From the NCBI RefSeq assembly GCF_001698205.1, contig NZ_CP016591.1, positions 2,542,001 to 2,606,000 of the forward strand: 64,000 nucleotides of DNA. The letters run 5' to 3'. The translations under genes and the position numbers were made by a program. Each line of letters begins with the position of its first letter. The first letter of the stretch is position 1. The notes beneath the pieces are model-generated. The model was not told the DNA's origin, searched no databases, and saw only the letters and a program-made list of their open reading frames with translations. Positions 55,428 to 64,000 of the stretch are shown here, piece by piece. This stretch comes from Tsuneonella dongtanensis. GTDB lineage: Bacteria > Pseudomonadota > Alphaproteobacteria > Sphingomonadales > Sphingomonadaceae.

Positions 55428-55712
55428 ATGACCGCTTTCCTGCTCGTCGCCCTTTTCGCCATCGTCGCTGTCGCCAGCGCGCTCACCCTCGCCGACGCAT
55501 TCCTGCGCGGGCGGAGCGCGCTCCAGCAGCTGCGCGGCGACGTGGGGCGGGCCGCGAACACGCGGCGCGATGGTGTCGCTTTCGTGTGTACTTCCGTCGA
55601 ACCGCGGATGTCCGCGCTGCGTGGCGCCAACTGCGCTTCGCCTAAGGCAGTTCGTTCGGCGCCGCGTCGACCGGTGCCGACTGGACCGCAGCCGTTGCGC
55701 GCTGCCGCCTAA
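55428..55712 (+). CDS. Small hypothetical membrane protein (94 aa)
   Basis: An N-terminal membrane helix (TAFLLVALFAIVAVASALTL) is followed by a basic, Ala/Arg-rich part with two Cys (FVCTSVEP, GANCASP). ATG at 55428 is preceded by GAAGG. Its 3' end overlaps the convergent pssA by 71 bases, and the C-terminal third has the composition of antisense GC-rich sequence, so the true protein may be ordinary only in its first half. No family recognised. Confidence 0.5.
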   Translation: MTAFLLVALFAIVAVASALTLADAFLRGRSALQQLRGDVGRAANTRRDGVAFVCTSVEPRMSALRGANCASPKAVRSAPRRPVPTGPQPLRAAA

Positions 55713-56493
55713 TTCGGGCGTACCGCATAATCGACCACGGCATCGTCGCCAGGTAGACCGCACAGACTGCAACAAGCGTCCACCAAGGCTCCAGCAACAG
55801 CGCTGCGAAGACCATTCCCACGACAGCAATGACAGGCAGCCGGATGTCCCGTCGCGGCCGCATCCGGCCCCAGCTCAGTGTGGCCAGGTTCGAAATCATC
55901 AGGAACGCGACGAGCCCGGTCCAAGGCGCGACAAGCAAGGGATCGCGGAACACCTCGTTGCCGGTCGCCATCCACAGGTAGAGCGGGAGGAAAGCCAGCC
56001 CGGCCCCGACCGGTGCCGGAACGCCCGTCAGGAAGCCCGCGGACTTGTGAGGCTGTTCGCTCACATCGATCTGGGCGTTGAATCGCGCAAGCCGAAGAGC
56101 TCCGGAAATGGCGAAGGCGAGCGCGGCGAACCAGCCGAACCGCGACAGGTCGTTCAGCGACCACAGGAACAGGATGAGTGCGGGTGCCGTCCCGAAGCTC
56201 AGCGAATCCGCGAGGCTGTCGAGCTCCGCGCCGAACCGCGACTGCGCCTTGAGCAGCCGCGCCATGCGTCCGTCGATCCCGTCGAGCACTCCCGCGAGGA
56301 TGACCGCGATGACCGCCTCGGCCCAGCGATCCGACATTGCGAAACGGATACCCGTCAGGCCCGAACACATTGCCGCTGCGGTGATCGCATTCGGCACCAC
56401 CGCGCGCATCGCCAGTCCCCGCGCTCCACCGCGCGGGCGAAGGGGAATTTCGTCCTCGGCCGCTCTGGGGCCGATACGCGGCTGCTCGGTCAT
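55642..56493 (-). CDS. pssA: CDP-diacylglycerol--serine O-phosphatidyltransferase
   Basis: A 283-residue membrane enzyme that makes phosphatidylserine. The CDP-alcohol motif is LDGIDGRMARLLKAQSRFGA followed by ELDSLADSLSFG, complete in D-x2-D-G-x2-A-R-x8-9-G-x3-D-x3-D. NAITAAAMCSGLTGIRFAM precedes it. Its ATG overlaps the psd stop by one base, so PS synthesis and decarboxylation are co-expressed. Confidence 0.95.
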   Translation of the reverse strand: MTEQPRIGPRAAEDEIPLRPRGGARGLAMRAVVPNAITAAAMCSGLTGIRFAMSDRWAEAVIAVILAGVLDGIDGRMARLLKAQSRFGAELDSLADSLSFGTAPALILFLWSLNDLSRFGWFAALAFAISGALRLARFNAQIDVSEQPHKSAGFLTGVPAPVGAGLAFLPLYLWMATGNEVFRDPLLVAPWTGLVAFLMISNLATLSWGRMRPRRDIRLPVIAVVGMVFAALLLEPWWTLVAVCAVYLATMPWSIMRYARIRRQRATAAVQSAPVDAAPNELP

Positions 56494-57242
56494 TACTGGC
56501 TGACGCCCTCGATCAGTTTCTGGGTTCCGGTTTCCGCCAGCACGGTCTCTCCGGCAACGACCGTCTGTCCGAGCACGACCTTGGCGTCGGTTCCTGCCGG
56601 CAGGTATACATCGACCCGGCTGCCGAAGCGGATCAGGCCGACCCGCTGTCCGCCGGCGACGAGGTCGCCCGGCTTGACGAAGGGCACGATCCGCCGCGCG
56701 ATCAGGCCGGCAATCTGGGTAAATCCGACCATGAGCCCGTCGGGACGCTCGACCAGCACATGCTGTCTTTCGTTCTCGTCACTCGCCTTGTCGAGATCGG
56801 CATTCATGAACTTGCCGGGAATGTAGACCACGCGCCGAACCGTGCCGCCGATGGGCGCACGGTTGATGTGCACGTCGAACACCGACATGAAGATCGAAAT
56901 CCGCGTCACCGGTCCCGCAGTGAGGCCCGCACTTCCGCTGCCGTCGTCGACGATCAGTTCCTTCGGCGGTTCGACCTGCGCGATCAGCGACACGAGCCCG
57001 TCCGCGGGCGAAACGATCAGGTTGTCACCCTGCGGCACAACGCGTTCGGGATCGCGGAAAAAGGCGAGAACACCCAGCGTGAGGAATGCGAGCGGCCAAG
57101 CCAGCGTTTCCCATGCGAGCAGTGCGGTGACGAAACTTGCCGCGGCGGTGATGAGAGCGAACTTGCGCCCTTCGGGATGGACCGCCGGCCAGTGCCAATG
57201 CGCGTCCCCCCGGCCTCTGTTATCGAGAATTTCTCCGGCCAT
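56493..57242 (-). CDS. psd: Phosphatidylserine decarboxylase
   Basis: A 249-residue pyruvoyl enzyme that converts phosphatidylserine to phosphatidylethanolamine. [39 protein letters not shown] and the self-cleavage site [12 protein letters not shown] (Ser in FGS becomes the pyruvoyl group) are visible; two hydrophobic segments near residues 28-62 anchor it. It is the short proteobacterial type. Confidence 0.95.
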
Positions 57243-57289
57243 GTCCCGCGACTTAGGTCCTGTATCCGCTCGTCACAAGCGAAACCGCC

Positions 57290-58411
57290 CTACGCCGCCT
57301 TGCGCACGAAAACCGTTCCGGCCGAATAGCCTGCCCCGAACGAGCAGATGAGCCCGACATCGCCGCTCTCGAGATCGTCCGAATGCTTGTGGAATGCGAT
57401 GATCGATCCGGCGCTTGAGGTGTTCGCATAGGTGTCGAGCACGGTGGGGCTTTCGTCCGCGCTTGCTTCGTGTCCCAGCACGCGCTGGGCAATCAGGCGA
57501 TTCATGCCGGCGTTCGCCTGGTGGAGCCACAATCGGCGCAGCGAGGCTGGATCGATGCCAAGACGGTCCGCCTCTTCGCAAATCATCGTGGCGACCATCG
57601 GGACGACTTCCTTGAAAACCTTGCGTCCTTCCTGGACGAACAGCTTGTCCGCTGTGTCGCGCGTTTCGGGCGCGGTCCGGTTGAGGAAGCCGAAGTTGTT
57701 GCGGATGTTGTTCGAGAAGACGGTCTTGAGCTTGGTCCCCAGGATGTCCCAGTGCTCTGCCGGCGCGAGTTCGACATCCTCGACCAAGACAGCGGTCGCA
57801 ACGTCTCCGAAGATGAAGTGACTGTCGCGATCGCGCCAGTTGAGGTGGCCGCTTGTGATCTCGGGGCTGACGACGAGCACGCTCTTCGCATTGCCCGCGC
57901 GAATGTAGTCGGCCGCGGTCTGGATCCCGAAGGTCGCCGAGGAGCACGCGACATTCATGTCGAACCCGAAGCCTTCGATGCCAAGCTCGTGCTGGATTTC
58001 GATCGCCATCGCCGGATAGGCGCGCTGCATGTTCGATGCGGCACACAGCACCGCATCGACGTCGGCCGGGTCACGCCCGGCACGCTCGAGCGCCTGGCGC
58101 GCTGCAGCCACCCCGATCTCGGCCATGATCGACAGCTCGTCGTTCCCGCGTTCGGGCAGTCGTGGGCACATCGTGTCCGGATCGAGCACGCTCGCCTTGT
58201 CGACCACGTGGCGGGCCTGGATTCCGCTCGCCTTTTCGATGAACTCGACTGAACTCGGCTCAAGCGCGGCCATCTCGCCCGCTTCTATGGCAGCCGCGTT
58301 CGCCGCATTGTGGCGCTCGACGAATGCGTTGAAACTCGCGACCAGCTCGGCGTTCGTGATGCTGTCCGCGGGCGTGAAGAGGCCGGTGGCCGAGATGACG
58401 GGGTGATGCAT
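57290..58411 (-). CDS. 3-oxoacyl-ACP synthase III-like condensing enzyme
   Basis: A 373-residue thiolase-fold enzyme with the KAS III triad: Cys in NVACSSATFGIQ, His in LWLHQANAGMNRL and Asn in ANTSSAGSIIAF. It is longer than the ~320-residue FabH, with an insertion between the first strand and the core (FVERHNAANAAAIEAGEMAA). This long subgroup is distinct from the housekeeping FabH and may start chains from an unusual primer; the substrate is unknown. It lies 48 bases upstream of psd on the same strand, so it may share a transcript with the phospholipid genes. Confidence 0.87.
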   Translation of the reverse strand: MHHPVISATGLFTPADSITNAELVASFNAFVERHNAANAAAIEAGEMAALEPSSVEFIEKASGIQARHVVDKASVLDPDTMCPRLPERGNDELSIMAEIGVAAARQALERAGRDPADVDAVLCAASNMQRAYPAMAIEIQHELGIEGFGFDMNVACSSATFGIQTAADYIRAGNAKSVLVVSPEITSGHLNWRDRDSHFIFGDVATAVLVEDVELAPAEHWDILGTKLKTVFSNNIRNNFGFLNRTAPETRDTADKLFVQEGRKVFKEVVPMVATMICEEADRLGIDPASLRRLWLHQANAGMNRLIAQRVLGHEASADESPTVLDTYANTSSAGSIIAFHKHSDDLESGDVGLICSFGAGYSAGTVFVRKAA

Positions 58412-58499: not shown

Positions 58500-61400
58500 C
58501 TACTTGCCCGTCACGATCGGCTTCGCCCCATCGCCCACGATCACGAAGGCCGCCCAGTAGAACGGGTGGGATGTATCCACGTCGTCCATGAGGCTTTCTT
58601 GCGCCGTCGCCAGAGCCTTGGCGAGCGGCACCTCGCTACCGGCATCGAGCAGTCCGCTGACGAGCCGCTTGGTCGCATCGAAATCGTCGGGCACCGGCCA
58701 GTGGCTCGCAAGCACCGTGCGGGCACCCGCGCCGACGAAGGCACGGACGAGACCGTCGAGCGCGTAGTTGCCGCCGGTCGTCACGCCCGCATCGCGCGAG
58801 GCGCTGACGGTCGCCATACCGGCCGTATCGCAGGCCGACAGGATCACGAGGTCCGCGTCGAGCTTCAGGTCGAAGATCTCGCGGAAGCTGAGGAGGCCGT
58901 CCGAGCCGCTGTCGCCGAATGAGGTGACGAGCGCCGGTCGTGCCGGGCAGCCGCGCCGCGGTGCCGAAACGAGTCCGTGGGTCGCGAAGTGCACGATCTT
59001 GTACTGGTCGAGCGTCTGATCGGACAGCAACGCGCTGTCGGTGAATTGCTCACCGACCCGGACTTCGCTCGCACCGCCTTGCAGACGGCTTTGCGCGAAG
59101 AACAGTTCGTCGGGAGCGATCGGACGATCCCACACCGCCAGCGGCCAATCGCATTCGGTCGCCACGGCGCCGATCGGCCTCGCCTGGACGGGCGCATTGT
59201 TGCCGAGACCAAGGTAATTGCGTGGTGCGTTCGATGGCTGCAGTGCACGGATGTCGAGGAAGCCCCGCGGACTCACCGCGATCGAAACCTTGCGGCCACG
59301 TCCGAGCCAGTCGACCCCTGTGAAGTCGAACTCGTCGGCCTTGGGCTTCTTCATGCGCTCCTGGTAAGCCGTCACCCCGCGGTCCTCGGTGACGAGGATG
59401 TACGGCGGCAACTGCAGCATCGGGCCGTCCGGCTCGAAAATCAGGTGATCGAGCCCCTTTATCTCACTGTCGATCGGTTCGAACAGCTTGAGATAGAGCT
59501 TGCGTGCCGCGACGAGGTCGAACGGGAAGTTGATCGTCTGCCCGCCTTGCACGGTCACCACGCTGTCGCGGATGACCTGCACTTCCTTCTCGAGGTCACG
59601 CACCTTGCCCGGCACCGGGATTACCCTGGCCCCGCTGGCCGTTGTGAAAAGCCCGTAAAGGTCGTCACCTACGACAATGAGCTTGTAGTAGCCCTCGCCT
59701 GCCCTGAGTTCTTTCTGAAGGTCGGCGATCTCGAGCGCTTCGGGCGCCAAGGCCTTGTACCGCGGGAAAGCCGACAGCTGGGAGGTCAGCGCCGCCTGCT
59801 CCTGCTTCATCGTTGCAAGGCTGGATTCCGCAATGCGCAGGTTCTCGATGTCTTGCGGCGTCGGCTCGTCGATGCCCTGCATCCGGCCGATCTCGACTTC
59901 CTGCCGGGCGATCTCGCGGCTCCTGCGTATAGCAAGCCGGAAAAGCGAGGCGGCTTCGTCGTTACCGTCAGACAACTGGCGAGCGAGGATCGCCTGAGTC
60001 TGTGCCACGCCCGGGCGCTCGAGGACCTGCGATGCGCTGAACATGGCAGCCGCCGCATCGCTGTCGCCGGCTTTGGCGAGGAGCGAGAAATAGGGGCTGA
60101 GCAGCGACCGCAGGGTCGGGCCGACGTCGGGAATGCTGGGAGCTTCCTCTACTACGTCCTCGTATATGGAACGGGCGCCGGCCACATCGCCGCCCCGCCC
60201 CAGGAACGCTGCCTTGCGCGCGCGGGCGGCAAGTAGTGCGGGGGAATTGGGATAGGATGCGCCGATGGCCGCAATCGCACTGTCGAAAGCACCCACGGCC
60301 TCGTCGCGCCGCCCTTCCGCCTCGGCGATAAGGGCAAGTTCCATCTGGATTTCGGACCGGAGGAAGCCGGTAGAGACAACGCGGCCGTCGCGTACGCTGT
60401 CGATCTTCTTCGCCGCGTCGTTCAGCAGCACTGTCGCTTCGGCGAGATCACCCACCTGGCGGTGCGCGATGCCGGCGAGCATGAGCGATTGGCCATCGAG
60501 GACTTCCGCCCTCTCCACCGGGGTCAAACCGGGATCGAGCCCGCCGAGGCGCTGAAGGCCGACGTTTTCCCGGTTGATCTGATCGGACAGCGAAGAACTG
60601 ATCAGCCCCTGCCGCAGTGAACTTTCCTCAGGCGTTTCGAGAACCGTGGCGACCGGCTCATTAAGCACCTCGAGCGCGTCGCGCGAACGTCCCTGGTTGA
60701 GAAGGTCGATCGCGCGGTAGTTGCGCAACAGGCGTTGAGTCACGCCGTCGCCGCGCGCGACCTGCCCGGTGGCCTCCTCGAACACCCTCCGGGCACCGTC
60801 GAAATTGCCGAGGTTGGAAAGCTGCAAGCCCTGGTTGGCAAGCGCCTCGGCCAGCCGGGCCGGATTGTCGCGATTACGGTTGGCGGCGGCATCGAAGAAT
60901 TCGGCCGACTCGGCGAACCGGCCCCCGTTGTTGCGGGTGTACCCTTCCTCGACGGCGTCGTCGGCTTCGAGCAGGCCTGCCTGGACCCGTGCGAAGGCCG
61001 CCGGATCGCTTACTTCGGTCGAGGCCACGCGGATTTCGCCCGGTTGCGGCGCGTCGTTGACCACCGACGCCAGCGCAAGGCGGAGCGCCGGATCGTAACC
61101 GGCGAGCCCTTCGACGAGATACGAGGTCCCGCCACGTTCCACCACGTAACGACGGTAGTCGACATTGGCCTTGCCGTCGCGGCATGTGACCGTCTCGACA
61201 GTGCCGACGCCGCTAAGGTCCGTGCGGCCCACTTCACCGCAAGCCAGGTCCGGCACGCCGGGTCCGCGCGGCTCCGCGACGAGCGCGATCGAGCGCCGCA
61301 CCGCGATGACGTTGCCGACCGCACCCGCGGCATCGCGGCAGCTCAAGCGGTATGCCCGGTCGAACATGCCCTTCACGCGCGGATCGCTTGGGGCGTTCTG

Positions 61401-61541
61401 CGCCGTGCATGCTACGCCCGAAGTGCCCACGCGGAAGGAATTGCGGACCGAGAACGGCGTCGAGGTCTGAGCGAGCGACGGCGTCGCAAGCGCCACCGCA
61501 ACGGTGCCGAGTGCGACACCTGCGAGGATCCGGCCGATCAT
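58500..61541 (-). CDS. Secreted TPR-CHAT protein (caspase-like)
   Basis: 1013 residues. A signal peptide (ILAGVALGTVAVALATPSLA) is followed by a domain with several Cys (about 40-125), TPR-like helical repeats (about 180-530; e.g. NPARLAEALANQGLQLSNLG), a coiled coil (about 555-620) and a C-terminal CHAT domain (about 690-1005). The catalytic dyad is intact: His855 in IVHFATHGL and Cys904 in VILSACDTA. CHAT proteases are related to caspases and separase; most known bacterial ones act in the cytoplasm, whereas this one is exported. Its ATG overlaps the stop of the beta-helix gene, so the two proteins are made together. Confidence 0.9.
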   Translation of the reverse strand: MIGRILAGVALGTVAVALATPSLAQTSTPFSVRNSFRVGTSGVACTAQNAPSDPRVKGMFDRAYRLSCRDAAGAVGNVIAVRRSIALVAEPRGPGVPDLACGEVGRTDLSGVGTVETVTCRDGKANVDYRRYVVERGGTSYLVEGLAGYDPALRLALASVVNDAPQPGEIRVASTEVSDPAAFARVQAGLLEADDAVEEGYTRNNGGRFAESAEFFDAAANRNRDNPARLAEALANQGLQLSNLGNFDGARRVFEEATGQVARGDGVTQRLLRNYRAIDLLNQGRSRDALEVLNEPVATVLETPEESSLRQGLISSSLSDQINRENVGLQRLGGLDPGLTPVERAEVLDGQSLMLAGIAHRQVGDLAEATVLLNDAAKKIDSVRDGRVVSTGFLRSEIQMELALIAEAEGRRDEAVGAFDSAIAAIGASYPNSPALLAARARKAAFLGRGGDVAGARSIYEDVVEEAPSIPDVGPTLRSLLSPYFSLLAKAGDSDAAAAMFSASQVLERPGVAQTQAILARQLSDGNDEAASLFRLAIRRSREIARQEVEIGRMQGIDEPTPQDIENLRIAESSLATMKQEQAALTSQLSAFPRYKALAPEALEIADLQKELRAGEGYYKLIVVGDDLYGLFTTASGARVIPVPGKVRDLEKEVQVIRDSVVTVQGGQTINFPFDLVAARKLYLKLFEPIDSEIKGLDHLIFEPDGPMLQLPPYILVTEDRGVTAYQERMKKPKADEFDFTGVDWLGRGRKVSIAVSPRGFLDIRALQPSNAPRNYLGLGNNAPVQARPIGAVATECDWPLAVWDRPIAPDELFFAQSRLQGGASEVRVGEQFTDSALLSDQTLDQYKIVHFATHGLVSAPRRGCPARPALVTSFGDSGSDGLLSFREIFDLKLDADLVILSACDTAGMATVSASRDAGVTTGGNYALDGLVRAFVGAGARTVLASHWPVPDDFDATKRLVSGLLDAGSEVPLAKALATAQESLMDDVDTSHPFYWAAFVIVGDGAKPIVTGK

Positions 61542-64000
61542 TGGTTTTCTCCCCCTGCGTCGTCTTCGTTGACGGCCGACCCCAGCAGGGCAGGGTTGCC
61601 TGCGCCCGAAACGGGCTCGACCACATTGGCATCCGGGTTCAGCGGCCGCGTGTTGATCAGCGGTGCGGGCGGAGCGATCGGCGAGGAGGCGCTTTCGCCC
61701 TCACCCTCTTCCTCCGCGCTTTCGCTTTCGCCGGACGTGTCCTCGCCTTCATCCGCGCTCGCCGCCTCGGGCGCGCTGGGGGCATCCGCAAGGACCGAAG
61801 TGATTGCCAGGGCGATCTCGCTCGAAACCGAAGCGACCGGATCCGTCGCCCCGTTCGCGCAAACGCTGCCCAGGAACAGGCAGCTGTTGAGCTGGCTAGT
61901 GCTGCTGAATCCGGCAAACTGTTCGCTGTCGGGCGTCGGATCGGCCTGGACGAGCGCGAACGCACCCACCCCGGTTGCGGTCCCCGTGCTCGTCCGGAAC
62001 TGACCGTTGATCACGATCTCGACGCCGCCCGTCGGCGGGCTATCCGGAGCAATGACTTCGCTGTTGTCGAACGTCGTCAGGAAGCCGGCCGGGGTCAGGA
62101 CGGTGCCGGTGTTCTGGATGTAGAACGTGTTCCCAGGATAGATTTCCAGCCCGAATGCGTTGAGTACGCCCTCGGGTCGAGCGACGGTCAAGGGCGTATT
62201 GATGTCGGCGATATGGCCGACGTACCGCGGATCGGCGCGCAGTTTGGTGAGGATTTCGTCGCTGGCGACATGAATGTTGTCGGCTTCGATGTAGACCACA
62301 CCGCCGAGGCCGCCCGAACTGTCCGCAAGCTTGATCGAACCTTGTACGGCTTCGAGTTCGACAGTCCCGGACAGCAGTGCCAGCGACGTGGTCGGCGTGA
62401 AACCGGTCCCGCTGATCGCGCCGGAGACCCTCAGGATGCCCGCAGGTACTTCAGTCGCGGTATCACCGGTAGCGAGGATCAAAGTTCCGTCGGCTCCGTA
62501 CAGCTGGTCGCCGGTCACCGTCAGGTTGCCGACCGTCATGTCGGTCGCCTGTGCCGTATCGACACCGACGATCGCGATCTCGCCGGAGCGGATCCGTCCG
62601 AACTCCGCGTTGTCGAGGACGTATCCGGTCTGGGACGAACTTGCCCCGTCGCCGACGAAAACCCCCGCGGAGTTGATCGATTCGAGCAGCACTTCGCCGT
62701 TCGTTGAAAGTGCATCCAGCGAACCGGTCGAGGCGATGACGATGTCGTTAGACAGGATATCGATCTTGCGGGGGGCGCGCCACGCGCCGTTGACCGTCGC
62801 CACGCCGCCGAGATCGAAATCGATGGAGTCGGATGCCGTGATCGCCAGGCCGGTAAGCGAACCGGTGGCGGCACCGAAGATGCTGCCGGTCTGAATCGCG
62901 CCGCCGAAGGTCACCGACCCACCGATCGCCGTCGGCTGGGTTTTGAAGATCGGCAGCGGCCCGGAAGGCCCACGGAACGCCTGGAAGACGTTAGTCGTCG
63001 AAGTGACCATCGACGAGTTGCCGAAGTAGATCGCGCCCGTCGGCGCTGCGATGGAGCCCGTCGTCAGGTTGCCGCCGGTCAGCAGAAGGACGTCACGTCC
63101 GGCAAGATTGCCGGTCGTGATCGCGCCGGTCGTCTGGATTCCCAAGTCGCCCGGTGTCGTGATCGCACCGGTCGTGACGGGGCCGACCGAACTACCGATC
63201 GCCACCTTGCCTGCGGCCGGCCCCGATCCCGTGGTGGTCAGGTTCCCGGTCGATATCGCTCCGCCCGAAACGATGGTGATCCGGTCGTCCGAATCGATGG
63301 CCAAGGTGGTTAGGCCCTGGCCGGCATTCAAGAGCACGTTGACGGCGTCGAGGGCGCCGGTGGAGATCGTGCCGCTGGCCGCGAGGTTCAGAAAGCCACC
63401 GGATGTGATGTTACCGGTGAGAAGCGAACCGTTGATGTTGAGCGCCCACCCGCCCGGGAAAACGAAGTTCGCGTAGGCCAGCAAGTCCTGCCCGGTGTTG
63501 ATGACCGGCGTTGCACCGAGGTTGAACGTACCCAGCGTGGTGGGCCGCATCGCCGGCAGTACGAAATTGCCGGCACTGAGAGACAGCGAACCCGCGTTGA
63601 CGGTCGACGTGTCGAGCGTGACGAGCATCTGTCCGGGGGTGCTGACGCTGAGCGCGCTGGCGATGTTGACGGTCGATTGCGACACGTTGATGTCGAACGG
63701 CTCGGGGGCGACCGTGACCTGCGTTGGTACCGGAACGCCCGTCGTGGTGTCCTGCACCTGCAATACGGTGGCGACGACGTTGGGCGGCAGGTCACCAGCA
63801 GTCGTCATCGAAAGACTGTTCAGCGACACGTCGGACTGGCGGATAAAGAACCCGCGCTCGCTACCGAAGGCTGCGGAATAGAACGATCGTCCGTCCACGG
63901 CGCCGGTGCCACCGATGCCGTCCGCAACGAAGATCAGGTTGTTGGCAGTGAGAGAACCACGCTCGGTCCGCTCGAACCGCTGCGTGACCGCTACACTGAG
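61538..64000 (-). CDS. Haemagglutinin-like beta-helix exoprotein, C-terminal 820 residues
   Basis: The frame is open to the window edge, so the N-terminus (signal and secretion domain) is missing. The visible part is Gly/Thr/Ser-rich with irregular short repeats of the type TTGxI/L (GAITTPGDLGIQTTGAITTG, NLAGRDVLLLTGGNLTTG), typical of right-handed beta-helices in two-partner-secretion adhesins. Near the end a Cys pair (NSCLFLGSVCANG) is followed by an acidic linker (ADEGEDTSGESESAEEEGEG) and a tail PLNPDANVVEPVSGAGNPAL. Arg and Lys are scarce, as usual in secreted beta-helices. It is translationally coupled to the CHAT gene. The partner transporter, if any, lies outside the window. Confidence 0.82.
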   Translation of the reverse strand, partial: LSVAVTQRFERTERGSLTANNLIFVADGIGGTGAVDGRSFYSAAFGSERGFFIRQSDVSLNSLSMTTAGDLPPNVVATVLQVQDTTTGVPVPTQVTVAPEPFDINVSQSTVNIASALSVSTPGQMLVTLDTSTVNAGSLSLSAGNFVLPAMRPTTLGTFNLGATPVINTGQDLLAYANFVFPGGWALNINGSLLTGNITSGGFLNLAASGTISTGALDAVNVLLNAGQGLTTLAIDSDDRITIVSGGAISTGNLTTTGSGPAAGKVAIGSSVGPVTTGAITTPGDLGIQTTGAITTGNLAGRDVLLLTGGNLTTGSIAAPTGAIYFGNSSMVTSTTNVFQAFRGPSGPLPIFKTQPTAIGGSVTFGGAIQTGSIFGAATGSLTGLAITASDSIDFDLGGVATVNGAWRAPRKIDILSNDIVIASTGSLDALSTNGEVLLESINSAGVFVGDGASSSQTGYVLDNAEFGRIRSGEIAIVGVDTAQATDMTVGNLTVTGDQLYGADGTLILATGDTATEVPAGILRVSGAISGTGFTPTTSLALLSGTVELEAVQGSIKLADSSGGLGGVVYIEADNIHVASDEILTKLRADPRYVGHIADINTPLTVARPEGVLNAFGLEIYPGNTFYIQNTGTVLTPAGFLTTFDNSEVIAPDSPPTGGVEIVINGQFRTSTGTATGVGAFALVQADPTPDSEQFAGFSSTSQLNSCLFLGSVCANGATDPVASVSSEIALAITSVLADAPSAPEAASADEGEDTSGESESAEEEGEGESASSPIAPPAPLINTRPLNPDANVVEPVSGAGNPALLGSAVNEDDAGGENQ

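Follow-up and report, generated by a model that had tools for sequence, protein, structure and literature searches.

A two-partner secretion operon of Tsuneonella dongtanensis that encodes an exported TPR-CHAT protein, a candidate protease for the tail of its exoprotein

Introduction

Proteases of the CHAT family are best known from CRISPR systems, gasdermin-type cell death and separase, and for two of their members, Csx29 and separase, protease activity is proven. The two-partner secretion (TPS, type Vb) exoproteins HMW1, HxuA and CdrA are believed to be locked in the pore of TpsB by a disulfide loop at their C-terminus, leaving the end of the protein in the periplasm (PMC5422565, PMC11898600). 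CdrA is released when periplasmic LapG, which is controlled by c-di-GMP, cuts it near the C-terminus (PMC5422565, PMC11898600). The Bordetella exoprotein FhaB, the partner of FhaC, has a periplasmic C-terminal region made of a proline-rich part and the extreme C-terminus; this region is processed by DegP and CtpA, and processing controls FhaB release (PMC8263021). The FhaB proteases DegP, CtpA and SphB1 belong to families other than CHAT and are encoded elsewhere than in the operon, and a 2017 review of TPS systems noted that protease genes are apparently not part of TPS operons (PMC5422565). Here we describe a TPS operon that ends in a gene for an exported TPR-CHAT protein.

Results

The window analyzed in this work is a stretch of 64,000 nucleotides of T. 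dongtanensis (C1:2542001-2606000), and genes running past its end were read on in the same genome (L003). An earlier note on this DNA had described two genes coupled by an ATGA overlap, which is real: the tpsA stop and the start of the CHAT gene share 61538..61541 (-), and the same -4 bp overlap recurs in 23 related loci. The CHAT gene (58500..61541, -) begins with ATG and encodes 1013 aa, as the note had read it. Within the window lie the C-terminal 820 aa of TpsA (61538..64000, -), while the complete tpsA gene (L003:3538-10329, window-equivalent 61538-68329) encodes 2263 aa. The FhaC/ShlB-type transporter that the note had suggested looking for beyond position 64000 is present just before tpsA, with a 1-bp overlap, as a TpsB of 614 aa (window-equivalent 68329-70173, -; POTRA_2 E 5e-10, ShlB E 2e-11). 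The locus is thus a three-gene TPS operon, tpsB-tpsA-CHAT, with overlaps of 1–4 bp between its genes. Downstream of the CHAT gene, after about 90 bp and in the same orientation, lie genes (55642-58411, -) which by eye resemble a ketoacyl-ACP synthase III followed by phosphatidylserine decarboxylase and phosphatidylserine synthase.

TpsA opens with a signal peptide-like sequence followed by a putative TPS domain (window-equivalent 67559-68239, -) which, judged from its profile family, would be too divergent for Pfam. The protein has no match to the Pfam TPS domain (PF05860) and is grouped by profile with other TpsAs, among them that of L044, which has a sub-threshold PF05860 match (1e-4); CHAT-linked TpsAs above the cut-off include those of L090 (8e-29) and L259 (2e-33) and the second TpsA of the same genome (E 9e-12). 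The TTGxI-like repeats reported by the earlier note exceed chance, with seven matches to [IVL]xTGx[ILV] in the window part of TpsA against 0.63 expected and a maximum of four in 2000 shuffles. The folded part of the C-terminal region is predicted with high pLDDT to consist of strands, and Foldseek, run on the C-terminal 400 aa, matched no solved structure with confidence, so that the beta-helix of the note stands here for predicted strands. A Pfam search found no toxin domain in TpsA.

The tails of CHAT-linked TpsAs share an order, i.e., a cysteine pair, an acidic or proline-rich disordered linker and a terminal motif. In the window TpsA the pair is C2150 LFLGSV C2157 (61859..61882, -), and these are the sole cysteines of the mature protein. 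The arrangement N-x-C-x5-7-C was found in 55 of the 62 CHAT-linked TpsAs and was absent from seven, with a median of two cysteines in the whole mature protein. Such an isolated C-terminal pair resembles the anchors of HMW1, HxuA and CdrA, and we propose that it acts as a "cysteine hook" (PMC5422565, PMC11898600); by analogy, the TpsA tail is probably anchored. The linker (61619..61858, -) is acidic and rich in proline and is predicted to be disordered, with pLDDT mostly below 50 in the AlphaFold model. It is followed by the motif EPVSGAGNPALL (61583..61618, -), which starts 26 aa from the C-terminus and scores 27 against a position weight matrix threshold of 7.6. The consensus, (E/D)PV(T/S)(G/S)xGNxxL(W), starts 12-48 aa before the end. 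By leave-one-out scoring it was present in 58 of the 62 linked TpsAs, with no recognizable motif in the other four, and in none of the unlinked TpsAs, a control set of only seven proteins; the best of 810 other C-termini also scored below threshold. Among non-sphingomonad linked TpsAs 7 of 12 fell under the threshold, several being variant forms; TpsA tails of other orders often carry F(S/T)xxGNxxLW, as in L257, where the protein ends FNNCSVPTTSC...FSNTGNEQLW. The motif is a concrete candidate recognition site, and the tail may be cut or sensed by the CHAT protease in a manner that controls release or signaling.

The third protein of the operon starts with MIGRILAGVALGTVAVALATPSLAQ, which reads directly as a type I signal-peptide pattern (aa 1-25, 61467..61541, -) ending in ...ATPSLA before a Q. 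It continues with an N-terminal beta domain (aa 35-146, 61104..61439, -), a TPR/helical-repeat region (aa 180-590, 59772..61004, -) in which the Pfam models TPR_2/TPR_14 match around residues 231-257 and 397-464, and a caspase/separase-like CHAT domain (aa 678-1004, 58530..59510, -; Pfam E 1e-55). The four cysteines of the beta domain (C45, C68, C101, and C120), together with C797 and C865, are invariant in 62 sphingomonad CHAT sequences, which would fit disulfides formed in the periplasm. CHAT orthologues of other alphaproteobacterial orders have clear lipobox starts (L257, L260, L263-L265, L268-L270). It should be noted that a crude signal-peptide scan misfires where ORF starts are called too far upstream (L261, L262, L266), and therefore only clearly readable lipoboxes were counted. 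The signal peptide-like start, or the lipobox in relatives, and the lack of an outer-membrane export partner place the protein most simply in the periplasm. The extracytoplasmic location proposed in the earlier note is therefore retained as regards export, whereas a free surface protease is not what these features suggest. The catalytic residues that the note had named as intact, His855 (HFATHGL; 58977..58979, -) and Cys904 (ILSACDTA; 58830..58832, -), are at those positions and are both invariant in 126 of 126 homologues; a dead protease was rejected on this basis, and the protein is probably active.

The AlphaFold model of the CHAT protein (mean pLDDT 80) shows the same three parts, namely beta domain, helical repeats and CHAT. 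Sequence searches of the PDB with the CHAT part were uninformative, as the profile retrieved TPR proteins only and the single sequence nothing significant, so that a fold search was needed to find relatives. The top solved relatives were the TPR-CHAT protein of Craspase, Csx29 (Z 23-27), and separases (Z 20-23), with alignments that span both the TPR and the CHAT parts. With Csx29 the protein shares the TPR plus CHAT architecture and the His/Cys dyad; Csx29, however, is cytoplasmic and RNA-activated, cuts Csx30 as partner of Cas7-11/gRAMP, and has neither signal peptide nor TPS partner, whereas the protein described here has a signal peptide-like start, sits in a TPS operon and has lipoboxes in its orthologues. 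In separase, too, a CD-clan protease domain comes after helical repeats, but it is eukaryotic and its substrate is cohesin. The best Foldseek E-value (1.6e-10) was obtained for DdvA (PDB 8ROT), a transmembrane protein with a TPR-CHAT-like part which differs in being, by its entry title, an anti-sigma factor; we know of no TPS partner of DdvA. The earlier note had regarded the CHAT proteins studied so far in bacteria as cytoplasmic; DdvA may be a precedent for an extracytoplasmic CHAT-like fold, should its CHAT-like part face that side of the membrane. NCBIfam models gave only one sub-threshold TPR match for the five proteins discussed in this work. No PADLOC model matched the CHAT protein, and its identification with a known defence protein was rejected.

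Conservation of the linkage was analyzed across 100 Sphingomonadaceae genomes in which CHAT proteins were sorted by a full-length profile of the window CHAT class. All 40 CHATs of this class lie in TPS loci, as opposed to 3 of 40 other CHATs. A TpsB gene was found within 20 kb in 39 of the 40 loci, against those 3 of 40 (Fisher p 8e-18), and chance neighborhood was rejected; in the fortieth locus (G020; L049, L116) TpsB is 25 kb off but in the same run of genes, where the very long tpsA gene begins. The three other-class CHATs near TpsB are shorter proteins from two genomes. In G001 and G096 (L038/L114, L075/L115) short CHATs of a different class, 770-830 aa, are separated from a divergent TpsB by about 3.7 kb, and CHAT and TPS may accordingly have paired more than once. 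Among 80 named Sphingomonadales loci TpsA and/or TpsB are found beside CHAT in 73, and the remaining seven are near contig ends. The gene orders in these 80 loci were TpsB-TpsA-CHAT, the type of the window (n = 26), CHAT-E-F-TpsB-TpsA (n = 25, and five more with a doubled F), CHAT-TpsB-TpsA (n = 7), TpsB-TpsA-CHAT-E-F (n = 5), and a few variants. Erythrobacter longus and Novosphingobium fuchskuhlense are among the species with the three-gene operon. In other Alphaproteobacteria TPS genes lie beside CHAT in 15 of the 20 loci examined, and the five loci without them (L271-L273, L275, L276) hold weaker CHAT relatives. The distance matrices of CHAT and TpsB correlate with r 0.85 (permutation maximum 0.20), a value that includes shared species history. 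As judged from sequence, TpsB, TpsA and CHAT are kept together and co-inherited. The earlier note had regarded separation of the two genes in other genomes, or loss of the dyad among orthologues, as evidence against its proposal; the conserved neighborhood and the invariant dyad bring the pair through both of these sequence-based tests. The doubled F gene (CHAT-E-F-F-TpsB-TpsA) occurs in L167, L174, L180, L183, and L187, and in L123 a TpsB-TpsA-CHAT operon runs directly into another TpsB and a large ORF (L123:13295-21507). A second sphingomonad TPR-CHAT group (L057, L060, L062, L067-L070, L073) is without nearby TPS genes; many of its members have signal-peptide-like starts, which end in ...WAPF....

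The pair singled out by the earlier note is real and belongs, beyond what that note could see, to a larger set of genes, since in many relatives two further genes, E and F, are encoded within the TPS-CHAT operon. Pfam identifies CHASE2 and Guanylate_cyc domains in E (about 680 aa), which also contains FTDLEGFT, a motif of class III cyclases; its cyclase domain matches PADLOC Pycsar-cyclase models. By eye, F (about 250 aa) starts with a signal sequence; it has no Pfam match. F also looked similar by eye to FecR proteins, but across 19 members Pfam gave no convincingly recurrent family, and it was therefore left unnamed. In the genome of the window E and F are neighbors at C1:36.4-39.1 kb, distant from the operon. 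F is present in 29 of the 31 genomes with this CHAT class, in one of the 69 others, and in none of the 28 genomes that have TpsB without this CHAT class. Since F tracks the CHAT class, E and F likely belong to the same system even where they are unlinked. Two more CHASE2 proteins of the same genome (L100:6744-8837, L102:6579-8924) are unlinked to TPS or CHAT genes.

Discussion

The best explanation of these data, for which we would put the chances at about even, is that the TpsA tail is hooked in TpsB and that the periplasmic CHAT protein cuts or senses it; cleavage we infer by analogy. TpsA would cross TpsB N-terminus first and fold outside the cell until the disulfide loop near its C-terminus becomes stuck in the pore of TpsB, which would hold the body on the surface and leave the linker and the motif in the periplasm. 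There the TPR-CHAT protein would dock on the motif and, once switched on, would cut TpsA near the hook, such that TpsA is released or reset. E and F would be a regulatory branch that either uses a cyclic nucleotide to inform the cell about the state of TpsA and CHAT or restrains CHAT, as LapD restrains LapG. Csx29 depends on the final 20 residues of the protein that it cuts (PMC10028731), and recognition of a C-terminus would therefore be in character for a TPR-CHAT protein. Together with this whole mechanism, and with the same balance of chances, the locus would be a type Vb secretion operon with a dedicated, operon-encoded and exported caspase-like protease.

The system most like it is CdrA/CdrB with LapG of Pseudomonas aeruginosa, which likewise has a TPS exoprotein with a C-terminal cysteine hook (PMC5422565, PMC11898600). 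In that system the tail is cut by a periplasmic cysteine protease under cyclic nucleotide control, and for both of these a counterpart is proposed here. The layout of hook, flexible linker, docking motif and operon-encoded protease in the right compartment would fit the LapG scheme with CHAT in the place of LapG. The proteases are nevertheless of unrelated families: LapG is transglutaminase-like, whereas Pfam finds only CHAT and TPR in the protease of the operon, which moreover is encoded with the TPS genes. The nucleotide branch would also differ, consisting of a CHASE2 class III cyclase and F and not of c-di-GMP and LapD; the presence of the linked cyclase hints at a different second messenger.

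The conserved neighborhood would fit just as well if CHAT had F, the CHASE2 domain or TpsB as its target. The main rival reading, possible though doubtful, makes TpsA a surface receptor and seeks the substrate of CHAT in exported F or in the CHASE2 part of the cyclase, which lies in the periplasm; on sensing contact or stress TpsA would activate CHAT, and cleavage would switch cyclic nucleotide synthesis. It draws on the domains and FTDLEGFT motif of E, on the tie of F and the CHASE2 cyclase to this CHAT class (29/31 against 1/69 genomes for F), and on the operon orders CEFBA and BACEF, with CHAT accompanied by F and E in other orders as well. On the other hand, a second operon class (C1:882-896 kb; L074; G064) keeps TpsB-TpsA-CHAT without linked E or F, two genomes have CHAT-TPS without F, and signaling alone leaves the TpsA tail motif unexplained. 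We tentatively consider a still broader version, a five-part envelope module of Alphaproteobacteria composed of TpsB, TpsA, exported TPR-CHAT, CHASE2 class III cyclase and exported F, which would signal from the outside in: the periplasmic tail of the anchored exoprotein would report an outside event to a caspase/separase-like protease and from there to a cyclic nucleotide.

It is unlikely that CHAT merely serves TpsA biogenesis, either as a constant trimmer of its C-terminus or as a TPR-based chaperone that keeps it export-competent. The coupling of the genes with a 4-bp overlap would suit such a role, and HMW1C/EtpC provide a precedent for a third TPS gene that encodes a modifier (PMC8151025); the invariant CHAT dyad, however, argues against a role as chaperone only, and constant trimming has no need for a cyclase and F branch. 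A conflict system, in which TpsA would carry a toxic part into other cells or sense phage and CHAT would set off suicide like other CHAT proteins of defence, is very improbable: CHAT and class III cyclase domains are known from defence systems and the cyclase domain of E matches Pycsar models, but CHAT is exported and has no PADLOC match, Pfam shows no toxin domain in TpsA, and its neighbors include no recurrent immunity-like gene.

If the preferred reading, a hooked tail handled by a periplasmic CHAT protein, is right, these loci would be a widespread exception among TPS operons in having their own protease, one of the CHAT family, and would open to direct test what decides whether a TPS adhesin remains on the cell or is released. 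Control of TPS adhesins is itself known; what would be new is control by a dedicated caspase-like protease, and an outside-in signaling module would be newer still. Literature searches, mostly of open-access articles, that combined CHAT with hemagglutinin or with two-partner secretion, or CHASE2 with FecR, retrieved no paper on the pairing of CHAT and TPS. The genome of T. dongtanensis contains just one other CHAT gene (C1:892.7-895.8 kb), which ends a second tpsB-tpsA-CHAT run (L006, L005). This second operon lies near type VI secretion genes, with ORFs that by eye are TssK-, TssL-, and TssM-like (L005 ~12-18.6 kb, C1:898-904.6 kb), and an M23-type peptidase ORF sits between these and the operon.
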